From IMG/VR virus record IMGVR_UViG_3300022926_002497, positions 1 through 48,756 of that record: a DNA stretch of 48,756 nucleotides; one strand, written 5' to 3'. Each line of letters opens with the position of its first letter. The first letter of the stretch is position 1. Positions 1-39,755 of this stretch are shown here, in pieces. The translations under genes and the position numbers were made by a program. Source of the DNA: a virus. Below the pieces are notes generated by a model. It was not told the DNA's origin. It ran no database searches and saw only the letters and a program-made list of their open reading frames with translations.

Positions 1-264
1 ATCTCCGTATTTTAAACCTCCGTTAAAACCACTTTTGCTTAAAAATAGCCTTGTAATCGGCTCGTCATCAGATATCATCAACCTAGAAAAACTAAGATTT
101 CCAACCCCCGCACCGTTTTGCATACTTTTTATAGCTCCATTATATCCCAGGAAAACTTCCTTCTCTGAGGGTATTGTATAACCCATGTTAATAGAAGATA
201 TTCCAGATATTTGTGTTCCATCTATATAGAAAGCTTGCTCTTCGTTTGCTATAAAGTTTTTCAC
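1..264 (-). CDS. Partial tail protein downstream of the tape measure (N-terminal 88 codons)
   Basis: The minus-strand frame is open from a GTG at 262-264 to the left edge, so the C-terminus lies outside the window. The GTG shares its first base with the tape measure TAG stop (TAGTG), and a GGAGGT ribosome-binding site lies about 10 nt upstream, which supports this start and translational coupling. The visible part reads VKNFIANEEQAFYIDGTQIS and then alternates short hydrophobic strands with GxxxG-type turns, as beta-rich tail proteins do. Its pattern (DGTQISGIS, a GYNG segment, GNLSFSR) resembles the core of the tail-tube-like gene at 11472. By position it would be a distal tail or second tube-fold protein. 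That assignment is inference from order and faint resemblance. Confidence 0.6.
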   Translation of the reverse strand, partial: MKNFIANEEQAFYIDGTQISGISSINMGYTIPSEKEVFLGYNGAIKSMQNGAGVGNLSFSRLMISDDEPITRLFLSKSGFNGGLKYGD

Positions 265-3200
265 TACCTCAATCTACCTCCAGTTCTTTGCTCTTTAGCT
301 ATAACGTCCATCACCGCAGCCTTCACTTTTTTAGCAAAACTAGCGGATTTAGTTGGATCAGACATTGAAGAACTAACACCTCCCCCAGAGTCAACATTAA
401 TATTTATGTTTACATCTCCATGGGAAATATTTGATACACTACCTGATCCACTACCGCCCTGAACTGGCAGGGTTCCCGTATTTAATTGATTCATAACATT
501 AGAACCATATTTTTTTACGGACTGCGGGTTCATTACATACTCACCAGATGTTAACACACTTGGAACTCCTCCGCCTTTATTCCTAAGTATTACTTGATTT
601 TGTGTCACCTGCCCCCTTTGTCCAGTTCTAGCCATTTCAGAGGCGGCTATTTGAGGCCCTTCATAACGTCTTAACGCATCATAATAATCATGCGCTGCGA
701 CCCTATCATCTGGGTTCTTGTAAATTGAGGTTGCGCTATTTCCAGGCACGTCAATGTATCCATCTCTTTTGTATTGCTTCTCAGATCTTTCTTTAAATCT
801 TTTTTGGCCAAAATCACTTTCTCTATACTTCTGTCTTGCAAAATCTGCCACCTTTCCAATCACAGCCCCCCCGACCATTCCGTAAAGCATTCCAAGCATT
901 GCATTTTTTTCCAGTTTCTTTTGGTAATCTTTAACTTTTTCCCTGTATTTTTCTTGGGCGGCTGTTTGTTGATCCTGACGTAATATATTTTCTTTGTCTT
1001 TAAAGTATTCCTGAATCACTCTATCGTTCGCTATAGCATATGAACTTAAATTTTTATTGATTCCTATTTCCCCTCTCGTTACTTTGTATCTCGTTACCGA
1101 ACCATATTCATTAGTGTCTTCATACTCTTCTCTTTTAGCGGCGAAAGGAGCTCCAATACTGAGTCCAACTGCCCCTCCGTCTTTATATCCACCCAGTATT
1201 CCTTGATTCAAATTGTTCAAAAAGTGAACTCCGTATTTATCTACAGAACTTTTTTTAATAACATATTCCCCACCAGTAAGCATTGCTGGAACATCATCCC
1301 TAACACCACTTCCACCAGTTACCATGCCTCCATAATTATAACCAAGCCCAGTTATTTCTCCAAATGCACTTAAAACTCTTGATGAGGCACTTTTTAATAC
1401 AGCTTGCTGTATATGATTTATCAATTGGATGCCTACTTTTTTCATGGCATTGCCGAAGCTATCGGCGCCGCTTAATGCCACACCCATTGCATCAGCAAGA
1501 CCGTCCCTTAATTGCATAGGCAAATCTTGACCAAGTCTTGTATATATTTGCTCTGCATCGCTTTTTACATTTGCAAATCCAGATTTTAATCCATCAGTCA
1601 TGTTGGGAAAAAACTCTCCCATGAATCCTCCGTCACGACGAGTTGTTCTTGACATTTGTGATGCAAGGTTTTGCATGCTTTTATCCAATGTTTCTATTGA
1701 GCTTTTTAATGAATCCGCAGCTTGTATGCTTGCTGGGTCTTGAGATTGGTAACCTTGACTTTGTCTCACTTCTGATAAAGCAGCTAGTTTTTCAGTCCTT
1801 TCATCTATCATTGAGGAAAATTTTTCAAGCTGATCAGGAGTACCAATCGATTGTTGGTTTGCCATTATCCTAGCTTCAGCCACTTCAGCTGAACTCGCTG
1901 AAGGGTCTCTAGCTAAAACTTCATATTGTTTTTGTCTTCCTAATTGCTCTACAGCTCTATCAAATGCAGATGCTCCAGCTTGAGCTTCCACATCTAATTG
2001 ATTTAAATTTCTAAATTTATCAATAGTTCCTGATGAATATTTTCCAAACTTTAAAGAGCCTTCGAAGTTCTCAATATCTCTTTGAGCTTGGCGCAGAAAC
2101 TCTTGATTCGTTAGTTGATTAATTGTTTCTTGATATTTATCTCCAAATACCTTCAGAGTATCTACAAGATTTTTAAATTTATTATAATTTTTATCGCTCG
2201 AAGGTATTGTTGATAACATGTTATTTAATTCATCATTAATACCTTGAATGCTTGTTCCCTCTTTTATCTTCTCATCGTATTTTTCAGTTAAATTAATATT
2301 GATATTGTCAAATGTTTTGATTTGTTGAGTTACGGCCTCATTGGCTTGCCTTGATTTATCAATAACAGTTTTTGAAGATTGGTTTGGTGTTGAAGATTGT
2401 TTAGATGCAGCCTTTAATTCAGTATTTATATCTTTTAGTTCTGAATTTAATTTTTCTAAACCTTTGTCTGCATCAGCCAATACAGCTTCCTGTGCTGCGA
2501 CAAGTTCTTTTTGCTCTTTAATAGCTTCTGGTAGCCTGTCCCTGACTTTCTCATAATCACTAGAATCTATATTCCTGACGCCCTCTGAAATCATTGACGA
2601 TCCTGGCCCAGCTGCATAAACTTTATAACTTTCTTTAAGTAAGTCAGGCATATTAGCTCCGCCTTCGGACAAAGAACCTCCTACATATTTCTTTAGCAGC
2701 TTGTCGCCTGCCGAAGTTAATGGTTGAAAAATTCCTTTATTTTTATCTTCCTTAAATAAATTAAATGCTTTTTCGAGAGCATCTAAAGATTTTCTTTTTG
2801 AATCTAAAATACTTGCTTGGAGCTTTCTTGCTTCCCCTGCCTGCTCTACAGCTCCTTTCTTTGCTCCTTGCTTGTCTCCAAGTTGAGCTATATAATCGCT
2901 AGGGGCTCTAGGTCTTGAAATTCCAGGTATTCCTCCACCTTTATTTACTGACACATTCGTTTTCGAGCCATCTGGGATAATTAAATTATTTCTAGATGTT
3001 TCTCCTCCATCTGGAGCCAATTCATCTTTAATAGTGTCTCCTAATTTATTGAGAGAATTGATTAGATCTCTCTCGGACATTAATCTAAGAGCATCTCTTT
3101 TGAAATTCGAAAGCATCTCTGATTGTTTTAGAGCTTTTTCTTCTTCAAATATTTTTCTTTGTATTGAGTCTTGACGTTTTATTTCTTGCTCGTCAGTCCT

Positions 3201-6200
3201 CATCCCTCTAAATATAGGAGACTGCTGAAATTCCAATTTACTAATATTGCTGGATGCTCTTCCTTCAGCTCTCATCAATGATAAATCAGATCGAGCCTCA
3301 AACAAACCTATTGAAGATGATCTATCTTCAAGCATGCCTTGTATTTTAGATTGAATTTTATTTATTTGATTGGTTAATTCTAAGTTTCTTTTGTCTGCAG
3401 CTATAGATTCTGCCAAAACATCACTTTTATCATAAGTCTGATTAAGCATTTCTTGCAACATTTTAGCTTGTTCAGGACCTATAGATTTGCTGAATGAAAC
3501 TAATAAGTCTCCCCCTTGGTTAACAATGCTTTCATAATTTTTAACTAATGTTTCTATGGCGGCTCGCTGTTCCTCAAGAGTACCTACCCCCAAATAGGCT
3601 TTAAGTTCTCCAGGGTCATTTGGCATTTGTATACTGCCTTCTCCACGAGCATTTAAACCAGCTATTTCAAAAATTTTAGATGCTCTATCTTGATTTATCT
3701 TAGTTTCTATTTGAGCATCTAGTTGCCTGCTTGTTACCATTGATTGTAGTGCTCCAGGGCCTTGACTATTTACAGCTCTTCTAACCGCATCTAATTGAGG
3801 AGCAGTTAAATCCAATTCTTTTTCTTTTGACATAACACCCCTAAGTAAAGAAACTACATTTTCTCTATCTTGACTTCTGGCTTTCAAAGAAGCTTGCATT
3901 TGAAATATTCTAGACTCTTCGTTTGATAAAAATTCTGTAGCATTTCTACCAGACATGAATTGAGCTGCAAAATTTGATCTAGCCTGTCTGTTTTGAATAT
4001 TGCCAGAAGTTCTAATTCTATCAATCTCCATAGCCTTAATGCTTTCAGCTATGGTTGTTTTAAATTTTTGAGAAACATTAAATAACTGACTAGCTATGGC
4101 GTCTGAAGCATCTCTAGTTTTTTGAAAATTCTCCACATTTTTCTTGGCCTCTTCTATGATTTCAGCAAAAGAAACATTGCCTTCTTTGAAAAGAGCCATC
4201 ATTTGATCTACAGCCTCCCTTGACATTACTCCTGCATCTACCAGCTTATCAAACTCAGCTAAATCATCTAAACCCAAATCGGTATATTCTTTTAATTCTT
4301 TTTGAGCTCCACCTATTCCGAAAAACCCTCCAGTTTCAACTTGTCTTCCCGCATAAGCGCCCACTCCAGCTCCTATTGAAGCCATTAATAGAGGACTAGC
4401 TAGACCTCCAGTTAAAGCAGTTAAAAGAGCTGACCCACCTATTAATGCAGCAGCACCAATCCCAGCTCCTACACCGATAGCCCCACCAGCTAGAGTTCCT
4501 GTAGATGTGAAACCTTGTCTACCTTCAGCTGTTGCTCTAAGGTTTTTCATTGTTTCTGGGTCTAATTGTTTACCAGTTGCAGTTCTAGTTTCAAGACTGG
4601 TTTTTATAGCATCTAATGTACTAAAAACTTGGCTTTCTGTGGTTTTACCATTTCTGATATTCTGAGCCATTATAGAGCTGATAGCAACTCCAGCATTCCC
4701 AGCATTCCCAGTTCTTAATGCCATTCCGAAGTTTTGAATTGATGTTGCTACTGCCGTTTGGTCACTTAATTCCTTTTCTATCTTAGATAAAGTGAGTGGG
4801 TCTCCTCCAGACTGAGCCACTCGCTTTAAAATTTTTGGATCAGTAATATTTGACATCATTTGATTGATTGAAGAATCAATTCTATCCAATGACATTGTAT
4901 CTCCTCGCCCAAAAGCCTCGGCTCTTGCCGAAGACATTCTTTGTATATTTGAAATTGCTTGGATGTTTTGAGATGTTACAGAAATTTCTTTTTCCCTCAT
5001 TCTGATTTGCTCATCTATAGTTAGCGTGGCTTTTTGCATAGATGATATAAATCCAGCCGCTCCTCCCACTATGGCTCCTGGAAGCCCAAAAATAGCACCC
5101 ATTCCAGCTCCTACTAATGTGCTTGGCAAAGCTCCTGTGTCACTTACTCTATAAGATCCATCTTTTAAAGTTGCCCTGTCTTCTCTGCTTACTTTATTTT
5201 CTAAAAATCCAGCTAGAGCAGGCAATATAAAAGAAGCTCCTAACCCCACTGACCCACCAAAACCTTTTAATCCATTGGCAAATTGTTTCGTTGGGTCTTT
5301 TAAAAATCCCCCTATTCTGCCCGCTCTATTTGCTATCCCTCCTCCAGCTCCACGGCTAATATTTTGCCCAAGGTATCCTGCTTGAAAAGACCCGAGAAGT
5401 CTCTGTCCAAAACCTTTAACCCCTGTTTCTCTGGAAGCTAAGTTGTTCCTCGCCTTGCTTGCTGAGCTTTCAGACCTCCGTCTTGATTGGTCCTGCTTTA
5501 CGGTTTCTCTTATTGCTGATGTCGCACCTTGTAATGTTGAAATTGCCGTAAGATTCCTGGCGCTAGAAGAAGCATCATTTCTTAATTGTTTTTCTAGGTT
5601 ATTTGCTAATTTTGTATTTCCTGATTGTAAGGCTTTTGTAAAAGCATCTAATTTTCCTAAAAAGGGCTTCGCATTTCCCCTCACTAAACCACCAAATTCA
5701 CCACTTCTAAATCCAGCCATAGCCAATGATTTATTTGAAGAAAGAACCCCTTGCTCTTTCATGAAGGAACTAAATTCTCTCCTTGCTGATGTTCCCATAC
5801 TAGCAATTATTTTATTTGCTTCTTTTTTGTCTTGTGTTTGAATTCCCTTTGATTCTAAAAAGCTTTGTGCATAAAATTTCCTAGCTTCATTTTTGTTAAA
5901 TCCCTTACCTCTTTCTTCAAACACTCTAGATTGAGACCTAACCTTACTCTCTGCTTTTAAAGCTTTGTCCATTGCCCTTGCTGTAGTTAAAGGCATATTC
6001 ATCATTTGTTTTGCTTGCGTGTCTAAGTTTCTATTTAATGCATTTAGGGTTCTTAGTGTTTCTTTATTTTGTTCTACATTAGTTCCCTTAGATATGTTTT
6101 TCAGTGCTAGTGCTTGTGCGGTCGCCAAAGACTTCTCAAGCTCTCTTGGTCCTTGATTTGCAAATTGAGCTGCTAAAGCTCCTACAGCGCCTCCTTTTTG

Positions 6201-9200
6201 AGCTACTGATTGTAAAGCTTCAGCTCTAAACATTTGTTTTGCGAATTGTCGCCTGTCTAGAGATTCCTTCCCCATCAATCCAACTCTAGCTGATTCTTTT
6301 AAGTTGTATTCTTTTATGAGATTGGTGGTTTTTCCAAATGAATTTGCTATTCTATTTAAATATTGAGCTCCTCTTTTAGTGCTAGCGCTAAATAAGTTTA
6401 TACTGTTTCTGGCTTCCATGAAAGATCTCTCCATCATATTTAAACCTTCTGCTCGAACGGCTCCTGCCGCTTGACGTCTTACATTAATTACATCTCCTAG
6501 ATCCAATGCATAATTAGGCATTGAGGTTTTTTGATTAGGATTTAATCCTCCGTGTAAAGCTCTAGCTTTAGCCAAAGAACCTCCTTCTTGTTCTTTGTTA
6601 ACAACAGCTAGTCCAGGGTTTCTTGAACTTTTAAGAGAGGGGGCGGAGACGACTTTAGGAGTCACTCCGAAAGAAGCTTCTCTGGATACAGCGTCCGCTA
6701 CAGCCCCAGCATATCCAGGATTTGAATTCAGTATATCTTTTGCTTTACTAGAAAATAATGCATAGTTTGGCACATGGCCTTGATTCGACATTTTATAAGT
6801 CCAAGAGTCGCTGCCCCAATTACCTTCTGGCTCAAGCTCATCCTTACTGAATTTTAAATCTTTATTTTTCTCGACTTTAAATTTTCCTTTTTTGGCTATA
6901 CTGTCAATTACTCGCATAGCTGATTTTGATGTAGTCATATCTCCATACAAACCAGTATAACCACTCTTTTTAGCATAACGAGCCATGAATTCATAAAGTT
7001 GACGACCGTAACCTTTGCCTCTTAATGCTTGATCAGATTCACCAGTAAAGATAACTTGCAATCCCGTCTTTCCAGGTCTTTTTGGATCATCAATTTCTGT
7101 AGCTTGAGACTTTACGAATTTTTTATCCCCTACAAACGAAGAAAACTGAACCTGTTTTGGCGGCCCAAATGGCCCATCTTCCCCGCCAAACTGTTGAGTT
7201 TTTACTCTAAATTTTGCAAAGTTTGGAATTAATCCAGCTGCAGCCATATTAGGATCTACTAATAATTTTTTACCTCTATGAACAACGCTTTCAATTCTAT
7301 CTAAATGTACCCTTCTGTAACCTTTATCTCCAGGTCCAGCTGAAGGTATGTGAAGAACTCTAGTTCTACCCACATTTGCTGTCCTATCGAAATCATCCCA
7401 ACTATCAAATCCTTTTGGTGGAGGAGCTCCTTTTTTATATTTATGAACACCATGTCTGCCGACATATGTTATCGGATCTCCACCTTTTAATGGGTGATAC
7501 TTTACAGATTTATATAAATGATTTTTTATAATATTGTCTAGCTCAGACATACCAATGACTCCATCATGGCCAGATTTACTAACCGCAGCGCTTCTTTTCT
7601 GGCTCGCATTAATTCTCAACGGAATGAAATTAGGAACAAAACCATCTGCAAAACCGAATCTTTTAAACGCCTTTGCTCTTCTTTTATCAAAAAAGTCATC
7701 GACTATATCTCTTTGTCCAAAAAATCTAGAACTTCTTTTGAATAATTTTCTTTCAGCTTCTTCTGGCCCTACCCCATCAAGCATTTTTTCAAATTGGCCA
7801 GGAATCAAGCTTGGTAAAAATTTATCTAAATATTTAGAAGATTGTGAAGCATTCACATTTTGCATTACAGTCTCCTGTACAGCTTTTAATGTTTTTAATT
7901 GGTCTCCTCTAAATCTGCCAGAAAGTTCTCCAAAATAACCAGACTTCCCAGTCATGGAGCTAGCGGATTTACTTGGTGTAAAGCTTTTGTAAAGTTGAGC
8001 TAATTGCATTCCTACGGGCCTAGCTTTAGTAATCCATTGCTCTGGATCATAACCTAATATCATTCTATTAGATTTAGGTCTATCATCTAAAGAGCTTGAT
8101 TTCCCGTAGAATTCCATGAACTTATTTTCACTTAATAGATTGCTTCTTCTGCTTGGGTCACCTAACATACCCTTCACATTTTTTCTTACTTTAGATCGAA
8201 CACCTTTTGTTCCAAAAAAGTCTTCCCTTAGTAAGCTTAAATTATCCGCCCTTGTTTTACTGAATCCATCTTCAGAATGTTTCATTGCGGGGACTGCTCC
8301 GTATTTATCTCGGAAAAATTTTTTCTCGCTAGAGTTTAACCCCGAATTAATATTTATAGAAGAAGATTTTCCAGTCAAATAACTATAAAAACTATTTAAA
8401 ACTCCTGGGCTAGAAAGTATTTCTCTTTTTCTTGCGGAAGAAATATTACGCATTCCATATGTTGAGTCGCCTTCAAATAAAGACTTATACTGATTAATTG
8501 GTATACCAGTATATGACCCCTTAAATTCTAAAATATTAGCATCAGCATTTTTGATGAATGTTTTTAATATTGATTGTAAACTGGATTTATCTAAATATTT
8601 AAGAGCATCAGTATTATTAAGTAATCTTTTTTCTTCTGAATAAGGATCAAAAACACCCGTCTTTTTAGGAAAATCAAATGTGGATGAAAGTAGTGATCTT
8701 ACTAAAGATTGTTCGTTAAGATTTTTATCAAAACTAAATGCTGAGAAATTTGGAATTTGTAATTTTCGATCTCCTAAATCTTTAATTCTTTTGTTTCTTA
8801 CGGCGGCTCGTTTCGTGTTTAAATCATAGACCATGCCATTAAGATAACCATCTTTGGGGCCCATTGACCATGTTTGCGGGACATTGTTGCCGTAAAGTTT
8901 TAAGCTATCTTCTACTTGTTTCAAGAATCCAGGAGAAGCATTTTTAAGAAATTTTCTATGAATTAATGTTCTGACGGAGTCAAGCTCTGACTTGGTTCTC
9001 ATCGAAGCACTAAATGAATGCCATACATCGCTTAATGTCCTGTCTGTACCGTCATTCAAAGATAGTCCAGTAGCTCTTCTTTTGCCGTAGATTAAGCCTG
9101 CCGCTACATTAGCTGGTGTTGCTTTATATGCAAAATTTGGTATCACTCCAGGTCTTTGAGTATTCAAAGACTGCAGCATAGTATTCGGTATAATTGTATT

Positions 9201-11387
9201 AGCGAAAAGTTGCCCAGGGATTACTTTACCAGGTCTTTGATAGTAAGATGTTGGATTGTAATACATGGTCAATGCCTTTTCATACATTGAATCTGGCAAG
9301 TCACCAAATACCATTGCTTTATTTTTTAGATTTGCTTTTTGTGATTTTGATTTTAAATAAGACGGTAAAGAGCTCCTAGCTATATCTCTTTCCCTAGCAG
9401 CTTGCTGCTCCAAATTATCCATTATAGATCTCTGCTCGTTAGACATTTGGGAATAATTACTATCCCATCTTGATTTTTTTCTTGAAGCAAAATTAGGAAT
9501 TAAACCCCCGTTAGCATAAGGATTAAATCCATGTTTATTTTTAAAATTGTTTTTATATTCTTTCCCTGCTCTACTTCTTTCTGGAGGGATAATTGCAGGT
9601 TGTTTCATCCCAGGGAATTTCTTGATCTTTTCAGCGCTGTTATAAATAATTTGACCTAATCCAGAAACATTCATTGACTTAACGGACCCAGCTGTATATC
9701 CTCCTTTTTTAGCTCCATTTTTTTCAGCTATCCTTTCTGATGGGCTTACATAGTTAGGAACATGTCCTCCACTTCTAATCTTACTTAAGCTTGGTCCGTA
9801 ACCAGCCCTAGAGATAGCTGGAGCTATAGATCTTGCAGCGGCAGCTATTTTCATCTGTTCTCGGCTCTGAGCTTGAAGAATAGAAAGTATTGTTTTTTCT
9901 TGAGCCGCTCTATTTCCTTCTTGGGATAGTATTCTTTTTTGAAGGTTTGAATTTTCTCCTAATACTCCAACTATTGATTGCTGTATCTGTCTTTGCTGCT
10001 CTGTTGTAGAAACTATTCCCAGTAATTCTTTAGCACTTCCTGCTAAAAATTTAAAAGTTGTCCTGAATAACTTAGCAAATAAACCTATTCCAATAACCAA
10101 GCCTGGGCCAGAAATCACATTACCTATTCCCTTTAATGCTCCCTTCATGAAATCTGCCCCAGCACTTTCACCATCTTCTTTTGAAAGTAAATCACTTAAA
10201 CTGCTAAGGTTATCTCTTATTAGGGTTAAATAAGTTGTTATATTATCGCTAAATGCTATATTTCCAGCCAGTGCTGTCAGTTCCTTAATCACGGTTCCTG
10301 TTTGGTCTGCTAGTGCAGACATAGATCGATTTAAAATTTCATTTTTCTTATAAGCTTCATCTGTTGCCTGAGATGCTATTTGAGTTGCTCTTGCTAAAAT
10401 GCTATTTTCATCAGATAAATCTTTAATTGCTGCCTTCAAAATGTTGATTTGAAATACCCCACCAACTTGTTCCGCTACAGCAGCTTTTGTTGTGTCAGTT
10501 AAACCCTCATATGTTTTTGAAAGATTTTCTAAAACAGTTATTGCGGGTAATGTGTTACCAGCTATGTCTCTTACAGCTATGCCAAGCTCTTCTAACCTCT
10601 TAATAGTGCTAGATCTTTGCACCCTTGTGAAAATAGTTTTAAAACTATTACCAATAACTTTACCTCCTCTTGCAGTTGCTTGCTGAGCTGCCGTAACCGC
10701 ACCTAATAGTTGATCAAAACTCACTCCCGCATCATTTGCTACGGCTCCAGCTCTAGAAACTCCATCGATTAAGTCTTCAGTACTAACTGCAAACTGAACA
10801 TCAACAGCAGCCATTTTGCTTAAAATTCTTGTAGAATCCAATCCTGCCTTGTTGAATGTGTTTAATGCGGCTGTAAGTCCACTTACAGCACTAGCCGCAT
10901 CCAACCCAGTCAGTCTTGTTAAAATAAGAGCATCATTAGTCCTCTTCAAGGTTTCTTCCATGGTTAAACCTTGACGAGCCAATTCAGTTGCCGCAGTTGC
11001 TACAGTCCCAAAGCTTTGAGCTGTATTTTTTGCAACCTTGAATAGTCCACTTGAGAATTCCTCTAGTTGCCTATTGGTTAAACCCATAACAACATTTATT
11101 TCCGTCATGCTCTTTTCGACCTGCATAGCGGATTTAACTAAATTAGCAAATGCACTTTGTACACCATTAATGATTCCAACCGACGCCCCGAAAGCTAAAA
11201 CCCGAGCATTAGACGCTTCTAAAGATTTATTAAATTCACTAACAGATCCTGTGATTTTACCTAAAGCTCCTGTGAATTTTCTATCATTAATATTAAGATG
11301 TATACCTCCTTTGGAGTTAAATCTTCTTACGGCCTGATTGATAGATTGCTCTAGGCCAATTTGTACTGTTTCAATTTTTATCGGCAT
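264..11387 (-). CDS. Giant tail tape measure protein (3707 aa) with embedded modules
   Basis: Tape measure proteins set tail length and sit inside the tail tube before DNA ejection. Residues about 75-330 have the TP901-1-type tape measure core (EKSMTEINVVMGLTNRQLEE, then ATELARQGLTMEE, ARGGKVIGNSFKTIF). Hydrophobic Gly/Ala-rich segments lie near residues 420-456, 2045-2115 and 2297-2350. Long helical, Gln/Lys-rich stretches fill residues 2350-3330. Residues 541-1627 differ: eight G-x-[IV]-P-N-[FY]-A motifs separate distinct modules, including a GNAT-like domain. The C-terminus has two related segments, DVPAMLTGGEYV (P3367) and GVPSVLTSGEYV (P3609), each followed by a KYG...LN.G pattern. The start is ATG with an AAGGA ribosome-binding site inside a small hairpin. 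At the usual 0.15 nm per residue a fully extended protein would imply a tail of about 550 nm, probably an overestimate because of the globular inserts. Confidence 0.95.
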   Translation of the reverse strand: MPIKIETVQIGLEQSINQAVRRFNSKGGIHLNINDRKFTGALGKITGSVSEFNKSLEASNARVLAFGASVGIINGVQSAFANLVKSAMQVEKSMTEINVVMGLTNRQLEEFSSGLFKVAKNTAQSFGTVATAATELARQGLTMEETLKRTNDALILTRLTGLDAASAVSGLTAALNTFNKAGLDSTRILSKMAAVDVQFAVSTEDLIDGVSRAGAVANDAGVSFDQLLGAVTAAQQATARGGKVIGNSFKTIFTRVQRSSTIKRLEELGIAVRDIAGNTLPAITVLENLSKTYEGLTDTTKAAVAEQVGGVFQINILKAAIKDLSDENSILARATQIASQATDEAYKKNEILNRSMSALADQTGTVIKELTALAGNIAFSDNITTYLTLIRDNLSSLSDLLSKEDGESAGADFMKGALKGIGNVISGPGLVIGIGLFAKLFRTTFKFLAGSAKELLGIVSTTEQQRQIQQSIVGVLGENSNLQKRILSQEGNRAAQEKTILSILQAQSREQMKIAAAARSIAPAISRAGYGPSLSKIRSGGHVPNYVSPSERIAEKNGAKKGGYTAGSVKSMNVSGLGQIIYNSAEKIKKFPGMKQPAIIPPERSRAGKEYKNNFKNKHGFNPYANGGLIPNFASRKKSRWDSNYSQMSNEQRSIMDNLEQQAARERDIARSSLPSYLKSKSQKANLKNKAMVFGDLPDSMYEKALTMYYNPTSYYQRPGKVIPGQLFANTIIPNTMLQSLNTQRPGVIPNFAYKATPANVAAGLIYGKRRATGLSLNDGTDRTLSDVWHSFSASMRTKSELDSVRTLIHRKFLKNASPGFLKQVEDSLKLYGNNVPQTWSMGPKDGYLNGMVYDLNTKRAAVRNKRIKDLGDRKLQIPNFSAFSFDKNLNEQSLVRSLLSSTFDFPKKTGVFDPYSEEKRLLNNTDALKYLDKSSLQSILKTFIKNADANILEFKGSYTGIPINQYKSLFEGDSTYGMRNISSARKREILSSPGVLNSFYSYLTGKSSSININSGLNSSEKKFFRDKYGAVPAMKHSEDGFSKTRADNLSLLREDFFGTKGVRSKVRKNVKGMLGDPSRRSNLLSENKFMEFYGKSSSLDDRPKSNRMILGYDPEQWITKARPVGMQLAQLYKSFTPSKSASSMTGKSGYFGELSGRFRGDQLKTLKAVQETVMQNVNASQSSKYLDKFLPSLIPGQFEKMLDGVGPEEAERKLFKRSSRFFGQRDIVDDFFDKRRAKAFKRFGFADGFVPNFIPLRINASQKRSAAVSKSGHDGVIGMSELDNIIKNHLYKSVKYHPLKGGDPITYVGRHGVHKYKKGAPPPKGFDSWDDFDRTANVGRTRVLHIPSAGPGDKGYRRVHLDRIESVVHRGKKLLVDPNMAAAGLIPNFAKFRVKTQQFGGEDGPFGPPKQVQFSSFVGDKKFVKSQATEIDDPKRPGKTGLQVIFTGESDQALRGKGYGRQLYEFMARYAKKSGYTGLYGDMTTSKSAMRVIDSIAKKGKFKVEKNKDLKFSKDELEPEGNWGSDSWTYKMSNQGHVPNYALFSSKAKDILNSNPGYAGAVADAVSREASFGVTPKVVSAPSLKSSRNPGLAVVNKEQEGGSLAKARALHGGLNPNQKTSMPNYALDLGDVINVRRQAAGAVRAEGLNMMERSFMEARNSINLFSASTKRGAQYLNRIANSFGKTTNLIKEYNLKESARVGLMGKESLDRRQFAKQMFRAEALQSVAQKGGAVGALAAQFANQGPRELEKSLATAQALALKNISKGTNVEQNKETLRTLNALNRNLDTQAKQMMNMPLTTARAMDKALKAESKVRSQSRVFEERGKGFNKNEARKFYAQSFLESKGIQTQDKKEANKIIASMGTSARREFSSFMKEQGVLSSNKSLAMAGFRSGEFGGLVRGNAKPFLGKLDAFTKALQSGNTKLANNLEKQLRNDASSSARNLTAISTLQGATSAIRETVKQDQSRRRSESSASKARNNLASRETGVKGFGQRLLGSFQAGYLGQNISRGAGGGIANRAGRIGGFLKDPTKQFANGLKGFGGSVGLGASFILPALAGFLENKVSREDRATLKDGSYRVSDTGALPSTLVGAGMGAIFGLPGAIVGGAAGFISSMQKATLTIDEQIRMREKEISVTSQNIQAISNIQRMSSARAEAFGRGDTMSLDRIDSSINQMMSNITDPKILKRVAQSGGDPLTLSKIEKELSDQTAVATSIQNFGMALRTGNAGNAGVAISSIMAQNIRNGKTTESQVFSTLDAIKTSLETRTATGKQLDPETMKNLRATAEGRQGFTSTGTLAGGAIGVGAGIGAAALIGGSALLTALTGGLASPLLMASIGAGVGAYAGRQVETGGFFGIGGAQKELKEYTDLGLDDLAEFDKLVDAGVMSREAVDQMMALFKEGNVSFAEIIEEAKKNVENFQKTRDASDAIASQLFNVSQKFKTTIAESIKAMEIDRIRTSGNIQNRQARSNFAAQFMSGRNATEFLSNEESRIFQMQASLKARSQDRENVVSLLRGVMSKEKELDLTAPQLDAVRRAVNSQGPGALQSMVTSRQLDAQIETKINQDRASKIFEIAGLNARGEGSIQMPNDPGELKAYLGVGTLEEQRAAIETLVKNYESIVNQGGDLLVSFSKSIGPEQAKMLQEMLNQTYDKSDVLAESIAADKRNLELTNQINKIQSKIQGMLEDRSSSIGLFEARSDLSLMRAEGRASSNISKLEFQQSPIFRGMRTDEQEIKRQDSIQRKIFEEEKALKQSEMLSNFKRDALRLMSERDLINSLNKLGDTIKDELAPDGGETSRNNLIIPDGSKTNVSVNKGGGIPGISRPRAPSDYIAQLGDKQGAKKGAVEQAGEARKLQASILDSKRKSLDALEKAFNLFKEDKNKGIFQPLTSAGDKLLKKYVGGSLSEGGANMPDLLKESYKVYAAGPGSSMISEGVRNIDSSDYEKVRDRLPEAIKEQKELVAAQEAVLADADKGLEKLNSELKDINTELKAASKQSSTPNQSSKTVIDKSRQANEAVTQQIKTFDNININLTEKYDEKIKEGTSIQGINDELNNMLSTIPSSDKNYNKFKNLVDTLKVFGDKYQETINQLTNQEFLRQAQRDIENFEGSLKFGKYSSGTIDKFRNLNQLDVEAQAGASAFDRAVEQLGRQKQYEVLARDPSASSAEVAEARIMANQQSIGTPDQLEKFSSMIDERTEKLAALSEVRQSQGYQSQDPASIQAADSLKSSIETLDKSMQNLASQMSRTTRRDGGFMGEFFPNMTDGLKSGFANVKSDAEQIYTRLGQDLPMQLRDGLADAMGVALSGADSFGNAMKKVGIQLINHIQQAVLKSASSRVLSAFGEITGLGYNYGGMVTGGSGVRDDVPAMLTGGEYVIKKSSVDKYGVHFLNNLNQGILGGYKDGGAVGLSIGAPFAAKREEYEDTNEYGSVTRYKVTRGEIGINKNLSSYAIANDRVIQEYFKDKENILRQDQQTAAQEKYREKVKDYQKKLEKNAMLGMLYGMVGGAVIGKVADFARQKYRESDFGQKRFKERSEKQYKRDGYIDVPGNSATSIYKNPDDRVAAHDYYDALRRYEGPQIAASEMARTGQRGQVTQNQVILRNKGGGVPSVLTSGEYVMNPQSVKKYGSNVMNQLNTGTLPVQGGSGSGSVSNISHGDVNININVDSGGGVSSSMSDPTKSASFAKKVKAAVMDVIAKEQRTGGRLR
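6507..9767 (-). repeat. Eight-copy G-x-[IV]-P-N-[FY]-A motif array inside the tape measure
   Basis: Protein-level repeat read directly from the tape measure frame. Copies: GHVPNYV (residues 541-547), GLIPNFA (628-634), GVIPNFA (747-753), LQIPNFS (876-882), GFVPNFI (1249-1255), GLIPNFA (1385-1391), GHVPNYA (1537-1543) and TSMPNYA (1621-1627). Most are preceded by a small Ala/Gly/Asn-rich linker. The distances between copies (87, 119, 129, 373, 136, 152 and 84 residues) are the size of single protein domains, and the sequence between copies is unrelated from one interval to the next. The motif therefore looks like punctuation between inserted modules. Its function (docking strand, processing site or linker) is not known to me. 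Confidence 0.8.
6798..7190 (-). other. GNAT acetyltransferase-like domain embedded in the tape measure (residues about 1400-1530)
   Basis: Between the GLIPNFA copy ending at residue 1391 and the GHVPNYA copy starting at 1537 lies a segment with the GNAT order of elements. A beta strand (LQVIFTG) is followed by the acetyl-CoA pyrophosphate loop R1456-x-x-G1459-x-G1461 (ALRGKGYGRQLYEF), a long helix (ARYAKKSGY), a strand (GLYGDMT) and the motif B-like helix SAMRVIDSIAKKGKF. R/Q-x-x-G-x-G/A is the family signature for acetyl-CoA binding. The module fits exactly between two punctuation motifs. Its substrate cannot be told from sequence. Activity inside or after ejection from the virion is inference. 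Confidence 0.7.
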
Positions 11388-15135: not shown

Positions 15136-15897
15136 ATGAAAGAAATTTACAGTTTTAACATTGAGGTCAATAGAGAAGTCACCGAAGAGGTGGCTAAAAA
15201 ACGCAAGAATAAAGAAACAGGCAAAATGGAAGAGTATTTCGAAGATAAGGTTGTGACGAAACCTGTTCCCGTAAAGATAATTATAAAAGAACCAAACCGA
15301 AAAGAACTCGAAGAAGCTGACATTGAATACAGCATCGAAATGAGTAAGTGCATTAAAAAGGGAATACTCACCAAAGCCATGCTCGCAAAAAAATATAGCG
15401 ATTCGGGAGGTTTATTAAGCGAAGAAGATGCTCGACTATTAACTCGTCAATATGCTACACTAGGAGACCTTCAAAATAAATATTCTAGATTATCAGCTAA
15501 AACAAAAAAAGACCAGAAGGATGAAGACAAGTTAAGAGACCTGTTGGGGGAAATGGCTGAAGTCAGAAAAAGCATTGTTGAGATGGAGAGCAGTTATTCT
15601 TCCCTTTTTAATCACACGGCTGATAGTAAAGCTCAAAACAAAGTTATTCTTTGGTATTTGGTAAACTTATCTTTTTACCAAGATAATGAATCGGATAATA
15701 TTATTCCATTTTTCAATGCGGAAGAGTCTGAAGATAAAATAGATCAGTTTTATGAACTAGATGAAGAAGGTCATGAAATATTTGACATAGCTAAAGATAA
15801 AATTTCAGCTATATTAAGTTTTTGGTATTTTAGCACTAACGCCACCAAAGAAGACTTTGACGCGGTAAATGATGATATAGACTCTGGCAATGTATGA
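15136..15897 (+). CDS. Tail assembly chaperone candidate A, 253 aa
   Basis: The N-terminus is beta-rich and charged (VNREVTEEVAKKRKNKETGK and PVPVKIIIKEPNRKELEEAD), followed by a helical region. Residues about 66-115 (SKCIKKGILTKAMLAKKYSD, LLSEEDARLL) match residues about 50-100 of the next gene (NKAIKRGLKTEKEALDDAIK, LWTKEDEDFI). The C-terminal half is acidic. Two overlapping genes with a shared region near the tail genes are what long-tailed phages use as tape measure chaperones. Here they lie on the opposite strand from the tape measure, which is unusual. The end overlaps the next ATG by eight bases (ATGTATGA). No slippery heptamer is seen there, so coupling is more likely than frameshifting. 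Confidence 0.55.
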   Translation: MKEIYSFNIEVNREVTEEVAKKRKNKETGKMEEYFEDKVVTKPVPVKIIIKEPNRKELEEADIEYSIEMSKCIKKGILTKAMLAKKYSDSGGLLSEEDARLLTRQYATLGDLQNKYSRLSAKTKKDQKDEDKLRDLLGEMAEVRKSIVEMESSYSSLFNHTADSKAQNKVILWYLVNLSFYQDNESDNIIPFFNAEESEDKIDQFYELDEEGHEIFDIAKDKISAILSFWYFSTNATKEDFDAVNDDIDSGNV

Positions 15898-16900
15898 AAA
15901 ATCAGATAAGACGTTATTTCAAAAAATATTCAGAGATATAACTCAAGGTTTTTCAAAAACATGTTACGAAGGTAAACCAATATTCATCAAACATTTAAAG
16001 CCTGAAGACTATATTCTCATCAATGAGAAAGAAAACGAGATACTGAATAAGGCTATTAAAAGAGGCCTTAAGACTGAAAAAGAAGCTCTTGATGACGCTA
16101 TTAAAGACGATTTATGGACTAAAGAAGATGAAGATTTTATTTTTCAACAAGAACATTTTCTAGATAATTTAAGAAAAACCGCTTCACAACTACTACTTAA
16201 GTCTGAAAGAGAGAAACATGCAATACTGATCAAGGAGGAGCAAGAAAAATTAAATAAAAAATTATTGCAAAAACAGTCATTAACACAACATACAGCAGAA
16301 CAATATGCCAAAAACAAAATAAATGATTTTTTTCTCACCTTTGTTTTTTTTAAAAACCAAACCTTAAAAGATGTTTTTTTTAGCGAAAGCGATTTTTACG
16401 ATTTAAATTACTCTGAGGTTTTAAAACTTATTAAAATTAACAATAACTTTTCTTCGGTTTTTTCTGAATTGAATATTCAAAAGCTAATTCTTGAAGAATT
16501 CTTTTTTCCATATATGATGTTATGTGAAAAACCCTTGGATATATTTGGTAAAGCGGCTGTAGAATTAACAACCTTACAAATGTCAATTTGTACATACTGC
16601 AAAATATTTAAAAATATTTTCGATAATAACCCTAAGATTCCAGAATCTATAAAAAAAGACCCAGAAGCTTTGCTTGAATATGTTAATAGTGAATCTACAA
16701 AAAGCAAAGAGAATTTAGACAAACATTTATCTAAAGAAGGAGCAACAACAGTATTTGGTGCAGATAGAGAAGACTACCGACACTTAGGAGTTGAAGATCA
16801 AGACATTAAAAGCAACATATCATTGACAGAAGCTGCTAAAAAGAAAGGCGGAACTTTAACAATGCAGGACCTTATGGAATTGCAAGGTAAAGGTTCTTAA
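15890..16900 (+). CDS. Tail assembly chaperone candidate B, 336 aa
   Basis: The start overlaps gene A in the +1 frame; an in-frame TAG at 15878 rules out a longer version. The N-terminal part (residues 30-45, PIFIKHLKPEDYIL) leads into the helical segment shared with gene A. A long Lys/Glu/Gln helix (residues about 90-135) and an aromatic-rich domain with FFFPYMMLCEKPLDIFGKAA (around residues 205-225) follow. The C-terminus is polar with a GGTLTMQDLMELQGKGS tail. No membrane segment. The stop (16898-16900) touches the stop of the convergent gene at 16901 with no intervening base. The chaperone role is inferred from pairing and context. Confidence 0.55.
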   Translation: MYEKSDKTLFQKIFRDITQGFSKTCYEGKPIFIKHLKPEDYILINEKENEILNKAIKRGLKTEKEALDDAIKDDLWTKEDEDFIFQQEHFLDNLRKTASQLLLKSEREKHAILIKEEQEKLNKKLLQKQSLTQHTAEQYAKNKINDFFLTFVFFKNQTLKDVFFSESDFYDLNYSEVLKLIKINNNFSSVFSELNIQKLILEEFFFPYMMLCEKPLDIFGKAAVELTTLQMSICTYCKIFKNIFDNNPKIPESIKKDPEALLEYVNSESTKSKENLDKHLSKEGATTVFGADREDYRHLGVEDQDIKSNISLTEAAKKKGGTLTMQDLMELQGKGS

Positions 16901-36874: not shown

Positions 36875-38742
36875 GTTGGGATGCTGGAGAGCAGCAAAGA
36901 GCTATTAAGGAAGATTTTAATAAGCTTTTGCTACAGAAAAAAGGTTTTATCGAAGAAGATGAAGCTCAAATTTTGTTGTATAAATTTTTAAGGGAAAATA
37001 TTACTTTTGCAACTCATTTAATAGCTGGCGTTGATTTGTTTCCCTTTCAACATATGGCCATCAAAGCAATGTTTGAAACTGATTACACTTTAGGAGTGTG
37101 GTCTCGTGGTATGTCTAAATCTTTTACAACAGGGATATATGCTTTTTTAGATGCGATATTCAATCAAGGAGTTGAGATCGGAATTCTATCAAAATCATTC
37201 AGGCAATCCAAAATGATTTTTAAAAAAATTGAAGATATTGCAGCCAAACCAGAGGCAGCTCTTTTAGCCCAATGTATTACTCATAAATCTAAAAGTAATG
37301 ACGAATGGTTGATGGAAATAGGAAGCTCAAGAATTAGAGCCTTGCCTTTAGGGGATGGATCTAAATTGCGGGGATTCCGTTTTCATAGAATTATCATTGA
37401 TGAATTCTTACTGATGCCAGAAAGAATTTATAACGAAGTTATTGTGCCCTTTCTTTCTGTAGTTGAAAATCCCGTAGAGAGAGAAAGAATGTATAATGTT
37501 GAAACCGAGTTAATTAAACAAGGAAAAATGAAAGAGGAGGATAGACGTCAATGGCCAAATAATAAATTAATAGCTCTCTCTTCCGCGTCTTATAAATTTG
37601 AGTATTTATATAAACTTTATGAACAATTTGAGGGTCTTATATCTGGTAAAATCGTAGAAGACGGGGGAAATGCTACTAGGTGTATTATGCAGTTTAGTTA
37701 TGATTGTGCTCCCAAAAAATTGTATGATGAAAATTTAATTTTACAGTCTAAAGCCACTATGAGCCAATCTCAATTTGATCGAGAGTTTGGCGCGATTTTC
37801 ACAGATGATAGTTCTGGATATTTCAAAACTTCCAGAATGGCTTCTTGCACGATTCCAGCTGGAGAATCTCCTTCTGTTGAAGTAAAAGGAGATCCCACAT
37901 CTGATTATTTAATTTCTTTTGACCCTAGCTGGGCTGAATCTGAAAGTTCTGACTTTTTCGCCATACAGGTGTTTAAACTTAATAACGAAACTAAACAAGG
38001 CACCTTGGTGCATGCATATGCACTAGCAGGAACGAACCTAAAGCACCATATTTTTTATTTTCACTATCTTTTAAAAAATTTTAATATTAAATTCATAGTC
38101 GGAGATTATAACGGCGGACTACAATTTCTTAATGCATGTAATGAAAGCAAAATATTTAAAGATTCAAAAATAAAAATACAAAACTTAACCCCAGCTTTTG
38201 ATAATCCAGAAAATTATAAAGAAGATCTCAACTTAGGGAAAAGAGAATATAATCCATCAACATACAAATATTGTATACTAAGAAAACCATCATCAGCATG
38301 GATAAGATCAGCCAACGAGCTTCTCCAAGCAAGCTTCGACCATAAAAGAATATGGTTTGCAGCAAGAGCCATCAACGACAGCTATTCCGAACAGATAAAA
38401 CATAACATACCCATTGATAATATTAAATTCTTAAACACAGCCTCTAATGAAGAAAAACAATCAATAGGAGCAAAGATGATTGATTTCGTCGAACACCAAT
38501 CTGATATGATTGATTTAACGAAAACGCAGTGCTCTCTTATTCAAATCAAAACAACCCCGCAAGGAACACAAACATTTGATCTACCAGATACTTTAAAGAG
38601 GACTACAGGCCCAAATAAAGCCCGTAAAGATGCCTATTCGGCCTTAGTGTTAGGTAATTGGGGGATTAAGATATATAACGATATAAAATCTCATAAAGAG
38701 CATTATGTAGACAATTCTTTCACCCCCATGTTTATAAAATGA
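36871..38742 (+). CDS. terL: Terminase large subunit, 623 aa
   Basis: This ATPase/nuclease motor packages phage DNA through the portal. The ATPase half has the Q-type string FPFQHMAIKAM (57-66), Walker A SRGMSKSFTTGI (78-89, K83), IGILSKSFRQSKMIF, and Walker B RIIIDEFLLM (173-182, D177, E178). The nuclease half has acidic residues D351 (YLISFDPSWAESESSDFFA), D412 (FIVGDYNGG) and a final Asp near residue 590 (KARKDAYSALVLG), as in RNase H-like terminase nucleases. The length is normal. It overlaps the genes on either side by ATGA (36871-36874 and 38739-38742), forming one translation-coupled run with nucleases and glycan enzymes. Confidence 0.95.
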   Translation: MSWDAGEQQRAIKEDFNKLLLQKKGFIEEDEAQILLYKFLRENITFATHLIAGVDLFPFQHMAIKAMFETDYTLGVWSRGMSKSFTTGIYAFLDAIFNQGVEIGILSKSFRQSKMIFKKIEDIAAKPEAALLAQCITHKSKSNDEWLMEIGSSRIRALPLGDGSKLRGFRFHRIIIDEFLLMPERIYNEVIVPFLSVVENPVERERMYNVETELIKQGKMKEEDRRQWPNNKLIALSSASYKFEYLYKLYEQFEGLISGKIVEDGGNATRCIMQFSYDCAPKKLYDENLILQSKATMSQSQFDREFGAIFTDDSSGYFKTSRMASCTIPAGESPSVEVKGDPTSDYLISFDPSWAESESSDFFAIQVFKLNNETKQGTLVHAYALAGTNLKHHIFYFHYLLKNFNIKFIVGDYNGGLQFLNACNESKIFKDSKIKIQNLTPAFDNPENYKEDLNLGKREYNPSTYKYCILRKPSSAWIRSANELLQASFDHKRIWFAARAINDSYSEQIKHNIPIDNIKFLNTASNEEKQSIGAKMIDFVEHQSDMIDLTKTQCSLIQIKTTPQGTQTFDLPDTLKRTTGPNKARKDAYSALVLGNWGIKIYNDIKSHKEHYVDNSFTPMFIK

Positions 38743-39755
38743 AAACCCATGCCTTAAATATAGATTCCACTCTTGACGATTTTATTAACTTAATAAGAAA
38801 TATTATTTCGCTAGACCCAGAACAATCCCAAAATACTATTATCAAAATAATAGACCCCTCGGCTTCTAATACATTTAATGAACTTTATAGCCATCGACAT
38901 TTAGACAATAAGAAATTAGCATATAAAAATTTTTTAAAACCCAATTTGGACTTGTATAAAACTCCAAACATTTTTATAGGAAATATATTTTTAGATTATA
39001 ATTTTGTTGAATATATTTCTATTTGTTGCCCAGTAAAATTGCTTAAAGAAGAGTATCTTAATGCTTTTGAAGATTTAAGGCTTTTAGTAAGCATTCTTTA
39101 CAGGAGATTCATTTTAAACACTAAAAAAATACTTATATGTATTTATTCTTCGATTGATCATCAAGATAAAATCAAAAAATTAAAAAACACGATTTGGTAT
39201 AAAGATTTTTCCAGAAATAGTAATTTGAATTTCTTTGAAATTTATGGCGGAGCTGAAAACACTTACACTAAAGGCGGAAAAGTTTTTCTAAATGTTGAAG
39301 AGGGGTATGACAAGTTGAGCTTGAAAACTTTTAAAATGATTGAGCACTTCAATAAGTATTATGATTTCGACTATTTACTTAAAATAGATTCTTCAATTAT
39401 AGATAGAGATTCTTCGATAAGACAATACACGTTTCACAATTTCGAGAACAACTTTAGATATAAACTCTTTGAACGAGATTATGACGGAGTTTTAAATGTA
39501 GAAAACCACAATTTTAGGTATATTCATCAATGGGCTCAATCTAAAAACATGAAAGCATATCCAGAAAAAATTTTTAAAAATGAAAAAATACCAGATTTTT
39601 GGGGTGGTAACGCATATGCTTTATCAAAAAAATCTTGTAAAATTTTATCTCAAAATAGGGAGGTTTTTCATGATTTCAAACAATATATGTGCGGTTGCGA
39701 AGATTTGTGCGTAGGGTACATATTGAAAAAAAACGGTATTAAAAACTGGAATTAA
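38739..39755 (+). CDS. Galactosyltransferase-like (GT31-type) glycosyltransferase, 338 aa
   Basis: Residues 128-334 follow the beta-1,3-galactosyltransferase pattern: ILICIYSSID, then VEEGYDKLSLKTFKMIEHFN (the family's D-x-Y-x-N-L-T-x-K string), FDYLLKIDSSII (K215, D217, equivalent to KxDDD, with Ser in place of later Asp), PDFWGGNAYALSKKSCKIL (289-303) and CGCEDLCVGYILKKNGI (E321-D322). The N-terminal 120 residues are not recognised. The degenerate metal site leaves activity open. No membrane anchor is present, unlike eukaryotic relatives. It overlaps terL by ATGA and begins the glycan-modifying group. Confidence 0.7.
   Translation: MKTHALNIDSTLDDFINLIRNIISLDPEQSQNTIIKIIDPSASNTFNELYSHRHLDNKKLAYKNFLKPNLDLYKTPNIFIGNIFLDYNFVEYISICCPVKLLKEEYLNAFEDLRLLVSILYRRFILNTKKILICIYSSIDHQDKIKKLKNTIWYKDFSRNSNLNFFEIYGGAENTYTKGGKVFLNVEEGYDKLSLKTFKMIEHFNKYYDFDYLLKIDSSIIDRDSSIRQYTFHNFENNFRYKLFERDYDGVLNVENHNFRYIHQWAQSKNMKAYPEKIFKNEKIPDFWGGNAYALSKKSCKILSQNREVFHDFKQYMCGCEDLCVGYILKKNGIKNWN

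Follow-up and report, generated by a model that had tools for sequence, protein, structure and literature searches.

Can the tape measure protein of a phage tail carry an enzyme for use in the infected cell? This question is raised by the 48,756-base virus record IMGVR_UViG_3300022926_002497, the whole of which is called the window here. Its gene for the tape measure protein (TMP) contains, between two short punctuation motifs, a module with an acetyl-coenzyme A (acetyl-CoA) loop of the GNAT type. The initial annotation of the window took this module for an acetyltransferase-like enzyme of possibly undescribed function. Our analysis confirms that the feature itself, a GNAT loop module between motifs in a TMP, is real. 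Its identity as a TMP is supported by a TP901-type N-domain that spans residues 76-349 of a very long protein of 3707 aa (TIGR01760 of NCBIfam, E 3.4e-32), by a PhageMin_Tail match (Pfam, E 1.3e-26) and by nine PHROG tape measure families that the protein also matches. The features that matter first are:

264-11387, minus strand: TMP gene, 3707 aa, with TIGR01760, PhageMin_Tail and PHROG matches
10341-11162, minus strand: TP901-type tape measure N-domain, residues 76-349, TIGR01760 match
7215-7229, minus strand: upstream punctuation motif (L)IPNFA, residues 1387-1391, I at 1387
6762-7217, minus strand: M3, cassette with a predicted GNAT fold (profile, fold and comparison), residues 1391-1542
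7005-7022, minus strand: acetyl-CoA pyrophosphate loop RGKGYG, residues 1456-1461, GNAT loop consensus (PMC4964394)
6759-6773, minus strand: downstream punctuation motif (H)VPNYA, residues 1539-1543, V at 1539

Sequence and predicted fold of the M3 module

The GNAT P-loop consensus is Gln/Arg-x-x-Gly-x-Gly/Ala, located ahead of alpha3, as described in the available text of PMC4964394. In M3 it is found as RGKGYG starting at residue 1456, and its R, G, G, Y and G are invariant across the family. R1456, G1459 and G1461, which the initial annotation had named as loop residues, are thus in place, and so is the framing that it described, with LIPNFA before and HVPNYA after the module. Its limits at 6798-7190 cover residues 1400-1530; the unit between the motifs is longer (residues 1391-1542, 6762-7217). 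The loop alone is only a lead and weak evidence for a GNAT. The loose pattern [RQ]xxGx[GA] is meaningless by itself, because 6 occurrences are found in the TMP and 7.07 are expected in shuffled sequences. The tight pattern [RQ][GN]xG[YIFLVA][GA]xxL is found once, and at least one occurrence is present in 3.15% of 2000 shuffles. What lifts the module beyond chance is the Pfam matches of the family, the predicted fold, the conservation by region and a ratio of nonsynonymous to synonymous substitutions (dN/dS) of about 0.09.

The family alignment comprises six sequences, those of the window and of the related loci L125, L126, L127, L128 and L130. Acetyltransf_1 and Acetyltransf_CG are matched by 6 of these 6 members at E<=1 (best E 0.0013). 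A search of 50,697 sequenced phage records with the module yields 5 matches at E<=1, the best with E 0.05; four of them are annotated as internal core or internal virion proteins and the fifth as hypothetical. The internal virion protein of phage SFN6B carries an annotation note for the N-acyltransferase superfamily, and its GNAT domain lies above the Pfam cut-off (32.4 vs 20.7 bits). A profile comparison between the window family and the SFN6B GNAT, calculated for this single pair, gives a probability of 89.1 and E 2.2e-6, with an alignment of 73 columns from beta3 to alpha4.

M3 was modelled from the 6-sequence alignment, with middling confidence. The predicted order of elements is b-b-b-b-alpha-b-alpha-b-b, in which the GNAT core beta4-alpha3-beta5-alpha4 is followed by beta6 and beta7. 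We read the model as a GNAT core minus alpha1 and alpha2, so the strand and helix order that had been described as intact holds from beta4 onwards. A Foldseek search of the PDB finds 31 chains at E<=1e-3, comprising by title 14 acetyltransferases, 13 mycobacterial ICL2 chains, 1 Rv1916 fragment and 3 chains of an unnamed M. jannaschii domain. In VIA-align, where rows within 1 Z unit are counted as tied, 691 of 1000 chains reach Z>=8. The top match is 1y9k (Z 11.1, 123 aligned residues, 3.2 Å), and Naa80 (5wjd, Z 10.9, 121 aligned, 2.8 Å) and RimI (2cnm, Z 10.6, 114 aligned, 3.3 Å) are tied with it. Among the best 50 entries, 48 are acyltransferases or Nat-complex structures by title (3kkw being taken with its sister entry PA4794); the two others are 1z4e, titled as a transcriptional regulator, and ICL2. 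Structure matches among viral models are mostly GNAT-named, and some are large proteins named RadC-like or ART-PolyVal-like. The fold prediction therefore comes out GNAT-like, as the initial annotation anticipated, and M3 very probably has a GNAT fold.

Conservation was calculated on six full-length aligned sequences, excluding L130 as partial. The invariant columns concentrate in beta5-alpha4 (73%) and in the loop with alpha3 (52%), and make up 34% of the part before and 32% of the part after. Between the modules of the window and L125, dN is 0.030 and dS is 0.339, from which the ratio of about 0.09 is obtained. The corresponding dN and dS values are 0.056 and 0.501 for L126 vs L127, 0.045 and 0.169 for L126 vs L128, 0.054 and 0.432 for L127 vs L128, and 0.191 and 1.845 for the window vs L131. 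For the window vs L126 dN is 0.335 with dS saturated. These values indicate strong purifying selection within the cassette.

Cassette arrays in related tape measure proteins

M3 is one of seven units in the window array and the sole one that is recognised as a known domain. Array units in related TMPs were named M0 to M10 by similarity, with one punctuation motif of the consensus G-[FLYH]-[IV]-P-N-[FY]-A closing each cassette; a lone FPNM at window residue 3260 was excluded from the array. The further parts of the window TMP are:

9489-9749, minus strand: M0, entry linker, residues 547-633, opening this array and those of 9 of 10 related loci
9132-9488, minus strand: M6 cassette, residues 634-752, without a Pfam match at E<=0.01
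8745-9131, minus strand: M5 cassette, residues 753-881, without a Pfam match at E<=0.01
7626-8744, minus strand: M2 cassette, residues 882-1254, without a Pfam match at E<=0.5
7218-7625, minus strand: M1 cassette, residues 1255-1390, with a small predicted fold rich in beta strands
6510-6761, minus strand: M4, exit linker, residues 1543-1626, closing unit ahead of the C-terminal part
267-6509, minus strand: long C-terminal TMP part, residues 1627-3707, of near-constant length in relatives

A comparison of the arrays reveals different orders of the same units. The order is M0-M6-M5-M2-M1-M3-M4 in the window and L124, M0-M2-M1-M3-M4 in L125, M0-M5-M7-M8-M2-M1-M3-M4 in L126 and L129, and M0-M1-M3-M2-M9-M4 in L131 and L132. 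L128 reads M0-M5-M6-M1-M2-M3-M8-M10-M6-M1, where the locus is cut. L127 has the GNAT cassette at its cut 5' end, followed by M7-M6-M1-M2-M4, and L130 (M0-M5-M6) and L133 (M0-M5) are each then cut inside the GNAT. The nine loci opened by M0 represent 7 different arrays, the tenth being L127, and M4 is last in all 5 different arrays that reach it. From the first to the last motif the array measures 1080 residues in the window, 842 in L125, 1416 in L126 and 996 in L131. The part after the last motif measures 2081, 2085, 2177 and 2023 residues in the same order and 1999 in L127; it is thus near-constant in length at an identity of 28-52% between the window and L125, while the array varies. The C-terminal part would then be the ruler.

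M1 often, though not always, adjoins the GNAT cassette. Its model (pLDDT 66.9) has a small beta-rich predicted fold. An assignment of M1 as a WYL or Sm domain was rejected, as Foldseek gives no match at E<=1e-3 and only weak, non-significant Hfq and WYL rows.

Exchange of cassettes at the motif

The nearest non-identical relative of the window is L125, and the GNAT modules of the two are 95% identical over the aligned positions. Elsewhere in the TMP the identity is 71% for residues 1-75, 89% for residues 76-349, 66% and 57% for the next two parts, 75% for M4 and 28-58% for the remaining parts. The module has a dS of 0.33, and six other measured TMP segments have values of 1.28-3.8 or are saturated. 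Third codon positions are identical at a fraction of 0.83 in the module and 0.45-0.61 in the other segments. The best change-point segment spans residues 1377-1545 with a log-likelihood gain of 83.5 (starts at 1377-1378, ends at 1535-1546), and the right edge of the similar stretch coincides with the downstream motif. We read these sequence differences as the exchange of the whole GNAT cassette between phages. The type-3 GNAT cassettes of L043 and L096 share 94% identity; there the similarity ends at the motif downstream (0 nucleotides beyond) and 7 nucleotides beyond it upstream, where 21 nucleotides are available. This type has itself been recently exchanged.

Across loci, 239 pairs of the same group remain after the removal of three linker groups and of pairs differing by more than 30 nucleotides. 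At least 80% identity in DNA is found in 45 of these, many of which come from near-identical phages. One or both flanks fall under 65% in 16 of the 45 pairs and both flanks in 5, some flanks being unavailable. The junctions were inspected in 12 of these pairs, hand-picked chiefly because their flanks differ; some loci appear in several pairs. Ungapped similarity stops 2-10 nucleotides before the upstream motif in 10 of these 12 picked pairs, and 0-3 nucleotides after the downstream motif in 9 of them. The exceptions are 75 and 729 nucleotides on the left and 72, 487 and 42 nucleotides on the right; only 6 and 21 nucleotides are available in two of the ten regular left cases, and the 42-nucleotide case comes close to the end of its 48-nucleotide stretch.

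Distribution of the arrays and their cargo

A scan of IMG/VR for G-[LF]-I-P-N-F-A yields at least 120 stretches, and with three further loci the survey comprises 123 loci and 112 open reading frames (ORFs). The counts in this section apply among the matches listed in that scan. With L001-L003 excluded, a TMP N-domain (E<=1e-5) is present in 66 of 109 ORFs; 36 lack it but run off the edge of the locus, and the other 7 lack it without being open there. These seven have a single motif each and may be chance matches. In the window, the strict motif occurs at 6 sites in ORFs of at least 80 aa; all of them are in the TMP, so there is no sign of a motif shared with other virion proteins. The restriction of motif arrays to TMPs is supported by computation.

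The listed ORFs contain 387 inner units (median length 131 residues), and the 320 units of 70-600 residues fall into 95 groups. The exit-linker group that includes M4 has 48 members, preceded by 21 different groups in 43 cases. The entry-linker group that includes M0 has 25 members, followed by 10 different groups in 24 cases. A second exit-type group has 24 members.

A Pfam survey of the cargo used 89 module representatives of at least 95 residues from the 95 groups. At E<=0.01 it gives 16 families, several of them chance-like, with Acetyltransf_1 in 3 representatives, SNase in 1 and a GHKL-type ATPase in 1. The window-type module scores E 0.0028 alone and can be one of the three Acetyltransf_1 representatives. 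The GNAT modules of L065 and L043 exceed the Acetyltransf_1 cut-off (22.2 and 23.4 vs 20.7 bits). The SNase cassette (L005:1670-2272, plus strand) lies between two motifs of another TMP and scores 26.8 vs a cut-off of 21 bits; the HSP90/gyrase-type (GHKL) ATPase-like cassette (L039:5327-7054, plus strand) scores 24.2 bits, just under its cut-off of 25. The arrays thus contain three or more kinds of GNAT, of which the window kind is the weakest by sequence. A single family for all GNAT modules is not supported, since the window-type profile does not pick up the other types at a significant level (L006, E 0.81).

By eye, the GNAT types of L061/L065 and L043/L096 share a YPQ/FPQ and an AKSS stretch after the loop. 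The L109 module with a GNAT-like loop has no Pfam match at E<=0.5 and is not counted as a GNAT. A kinase-like cassette (L051:7369-7974, minus strand), a HAD-like one (L019:6070-6516, minus strand) and a PD-(D/E)XK-like one (L122:1057-1743, plus strand) were seen by eye only and unconfirmed by Pfam. For a P-loop ATPase-like cassette seen by eye (L087:2337-2837, minus strand), AAA_30 stays below its cut-off.

Proposed mechanism

Starting from features that computation supports, namely the predicted GNAT fold, the loop, the selection, the modularity, the motif junctions and the restriction to TMPs, we infer a mode of delivery, catalysis, a target and a role of the motif. The C-terminal TMP part exits the tail first. 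Few TMP copies are present per virion, which favours a catalytic cargo. The cassette array lies between the TMP N-domain and the long C-terminal part. Phages gain and lose whole cassettes, reorder them and swap them among one another, and the junctions fall on the motif or close to it. In the proposed mechanism the TMP would be built into the tail, exit ahead of or together with the DNA, and take its cassettes as far as the inner membrane or across it. The GNAT cassette would bind acyl-CoA in the host and, as infection begins, acylate an amino group that most likely belongs to a host protein. The motif might be a hinge, a docking element for the tube or a chaperone, or a site of processing at which cassettes are released. 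The cytoplasm would be the site of action because a GNAT requires acyl-CoA. A protein amino group is our first guess, since RimI and Naa80 are among the tied fold matches and both GNAT families of the polyvalent proteins, assigned to the RimI-like clade, are presumed to act on proteins (PMC5512222, available text). The initial annotation had also named a toxin or nucleotides as possible substrates, and nothing in the analysis points to either.

Delivery to the membrane has parallels in the available text of PMC13190303. The TMP of phage lambda is labelled by TurboID-ManZ, in line with TMPs reaching the inner membrane at injection, and SNIPE associates with this TMP as injection takes place. 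The working domains of SNIPE face the cytoplasm, and the Bas14 TMP was crosslinked to it, though only with an enhanced-binding SNIPE mutant and not without it.

By prediction, M3 is probably an active enzyme, and we think it likely that it acts in the infected host. The complete proposal, in which the cassette is an enzyme that is injected and acylates a host target early on, is modestly favoured. For a broader reading the chance is about even, namely that uncultured phages run a combinatorial effector array in the TMP, with enzyme cassettes between entry and exit linkers that are swapped whole at the punctuation motif and delivered before phage gene expression. In that reading the cargo would include three or more kinds of GNAT, a nuclease and an ATPase-like domain, with kinase-like and other candidates by eye only.

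Weighing of alternative explanations

A number of observations count against an injected GNAT enzyme. The profile search gives an Acetyltransf_1 (PF00583) match of E 0.0026 and 18.4 bits, below the curated cut-off of 20.7 and along only about 30 residues, so the family match anticipated by the initial annotation was obtained only over this short stretch and under the threshold. The unrelated vitellinogen beta-sheet shell family (Vit_b-sht_shell) nearly equals it on the module with E 0.0096, and Pfam values at such a level therefore mean little alone. No NCBIfam match is found in the module at E<=1. When the PDB was searched by sequence with the family profile, 6 rows came back with E 0.32-1.7, of which four are acetyltransferases, one is an uncharacterised protein (YjdJ) and one is a phosphoketolase. 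The 50,697 phage records contain no close relative of the module or linkers: there is no match at E<=0.01 for the whole array, nor for the M0 linker and an exit linker, and none at E<=0.1 for the GNAT of the L065 array. In bacterial genomes, 0 of 38 pattern-matched stretches encode a relative, a search in which short peptide patterns may miss distant kin. The model of M3 has a mean pLDDT of 65.4 and a pTM of 0.66 and is built on only 6 similar sequences. The exchanged stretch begins on the left about 10 residues ahead of the motif, in a shared VDPNMAA stretch. Folded domains may also not fit the lumen of the tail tube.

The weaknesses of the sequence match, together with the 3.15% of shuffles and the middling model, are what would favour a module that is not a GNAT and whose loop arose by chance. 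Fold search and profile comparison concur against this; their agreement rules out a chance loop as the sole explanation, and a non-GNAT module is very improbable. A GNAT fold without catalysis, which would bind acyl-CoA or a protein partner and serve as a sensor, plug or scaffold, deserves more attention but is still unlikely. The top Foldseek match is ICL2, and in VIA-align the ICL2 match falls on chain residues 628-746, its C-terminal part. This C-terminal GNAT-fold part binds acetyl-CoA in a regulatory role and is not known to act as an acetyltransferase. Furthermore, alpha1 and alpha2 are missing from the model of M3, and conserved Y and D residues are present but a general acid/base could not be assigned. 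On the other side, the loop with alpha3 and beta5-alpha4 are the most conserved regions, as in an active site (and equally in a CoA-binding site), and enzyme-like domains occur in some other arrays.

Action in the producing cell or particle, by acylation of the TMP, a chaperone or tail proteins and not in the next host, is improbable. As is established, the producing cell synthesises the TMP while particles are being assembled, and delivery of the module is something that we infer. However, the turnover of cassettes beside an N-domain of 86-89% identity would fit a changing outside target better. Slightly less probable still is an array that acts as a variable spacer or camouflage against membrane defences that read the TMP, the enzyme folds being incidental. 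SNIPE binds the lambda TMP and Bas14 escapes engineered SNIPE mutants via TMP changes (PMC13190303, available text), but these changes lie at residues 100-150 in Bas14 TMP numbering. A dN/dS of about 0.09 in the cassette and the conservation of its loop and beta5-alpha4 also speak against a camouflage role. An injected, catalytic M3 cassette is the reading that we prefer.

Relation to known systems

GNATs in polyvalent proteins and in core proteins of short-tailed phages are already known, as are enzyme domains in TMPs. The function is thus not undescribed in the general sense of the initial annotation, since injected GNAT domains have been proposed before (Iyer 2017, PMC5512222); none in TMPs were found in the open-access literature. 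The polyvalent proteins likewise carry a GNAT in a large multidomain protein that is predicted to be delivered with the DNA and to modify proteins of the host. Two GNAT families are described there, and in the available text no framing repeat motif is described and the term "tape measure" is absent from the main text. Polyvalent proteins combine multiple conflict domains; of the seven units in the window array the GNAT alone is recognised, and SNase and a GHKL-like domain are found in other arrays.

SFN6B (Shigella) and myPSH1235 (Klebsiella), both Drulisvirus, likewise have a GNAT in a virion protein. It has two features in common with M3, a loop of the SLRGKGxG type and a GYxxLxxD stretch with SA after it. 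The carrier, however, is an Autographiviridae core protein and not a TMP. At E<=1e-3 this GNAT is detected in 8 of the 50,697 phage records, from five phages: SFN6B, ZH5, myPSH1235, KpV48 and Tunturi_5 (25.7% identity). The phiKMV-like Rac acetyltransferase (PMC7824862) is a phage GNAT aimed at the host RNA polymerase, and we read it as free-standing.

The Streptomyces contractile injection effectors Tme (PMC11126660) and Sle1 (PMC13277306) resemble our case, according to the available text of both papers, in that a TMP-like carrier holds a functional domain that varies between species and is loaded in a tail-like machine. They have one C-terminal domain in injection systems, whereas here several internal cassettes lie in a phage TMP. 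Polymorphic toxins also have a C-terminal variable domain, unlike the internal variable cassettes here, which are followed by a conserved linker and a long C-terminal part. TM4 (PMC1796659, available text) and, by annotation, SPbeta-type YomI likewise have an enzymatic domain in the TMP, a cell-wall hydrolase; these hydrolases act on peptidoglycan at entry, whereas a GNAT requires cytoplasmic acyl-CoA. In a study of mosaic phage proteins, TMPs are among the classes with a signal of sequence mosaicism (PMC10684548). Its authors, in the available text, could not confirm genuine recent mosaicism of TMPs, whereas the swaps seen here are recent and sharp. PMC6918029 and PMC10142737 describe, in their available text, GNAT genes in phages and not GNAT domains in TMPs. 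Neither a GNAT in a TMP nor motif-punctuated cassettes in TMPs were found in the open-access literature, preprints not covered, which is limited evidence of absence.

If the preferred reading is true, the TMP would be a carrier of swappable enzymes in an environmental phage group, beyond its roles as ruler and channel, and injected GNATs would extend from polyvalent and podovirus core proteins to TMPs. The punctuation motif would be a simple handle for finding such cassettes in number. Two questions would become testable: what TMPs carry into the cell in addition to DNA, and in which way a tail accommodates folded domains. If the array reading also holds, a tail protein would evolve like a cassette magazine and deliver a changeable set of enzymes before phage gene expression.

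Other features of the window

At the right end of the window (41196-48756, minus strand) two very large ORFs of 1404 aa and at least 968 aa are found; the 1404-aa ORF has no PHROG match at E<=0.001. The gene at 15890-16900 (plus strand) has a weak match to a PHROG named RNA polymerase beta subunit (E 7e-4). A galactosyltransferase-family protein (PF01762, E 1.7e-6) is encoded at 38739-39755 (plus strand), adjoining the terminase gene.

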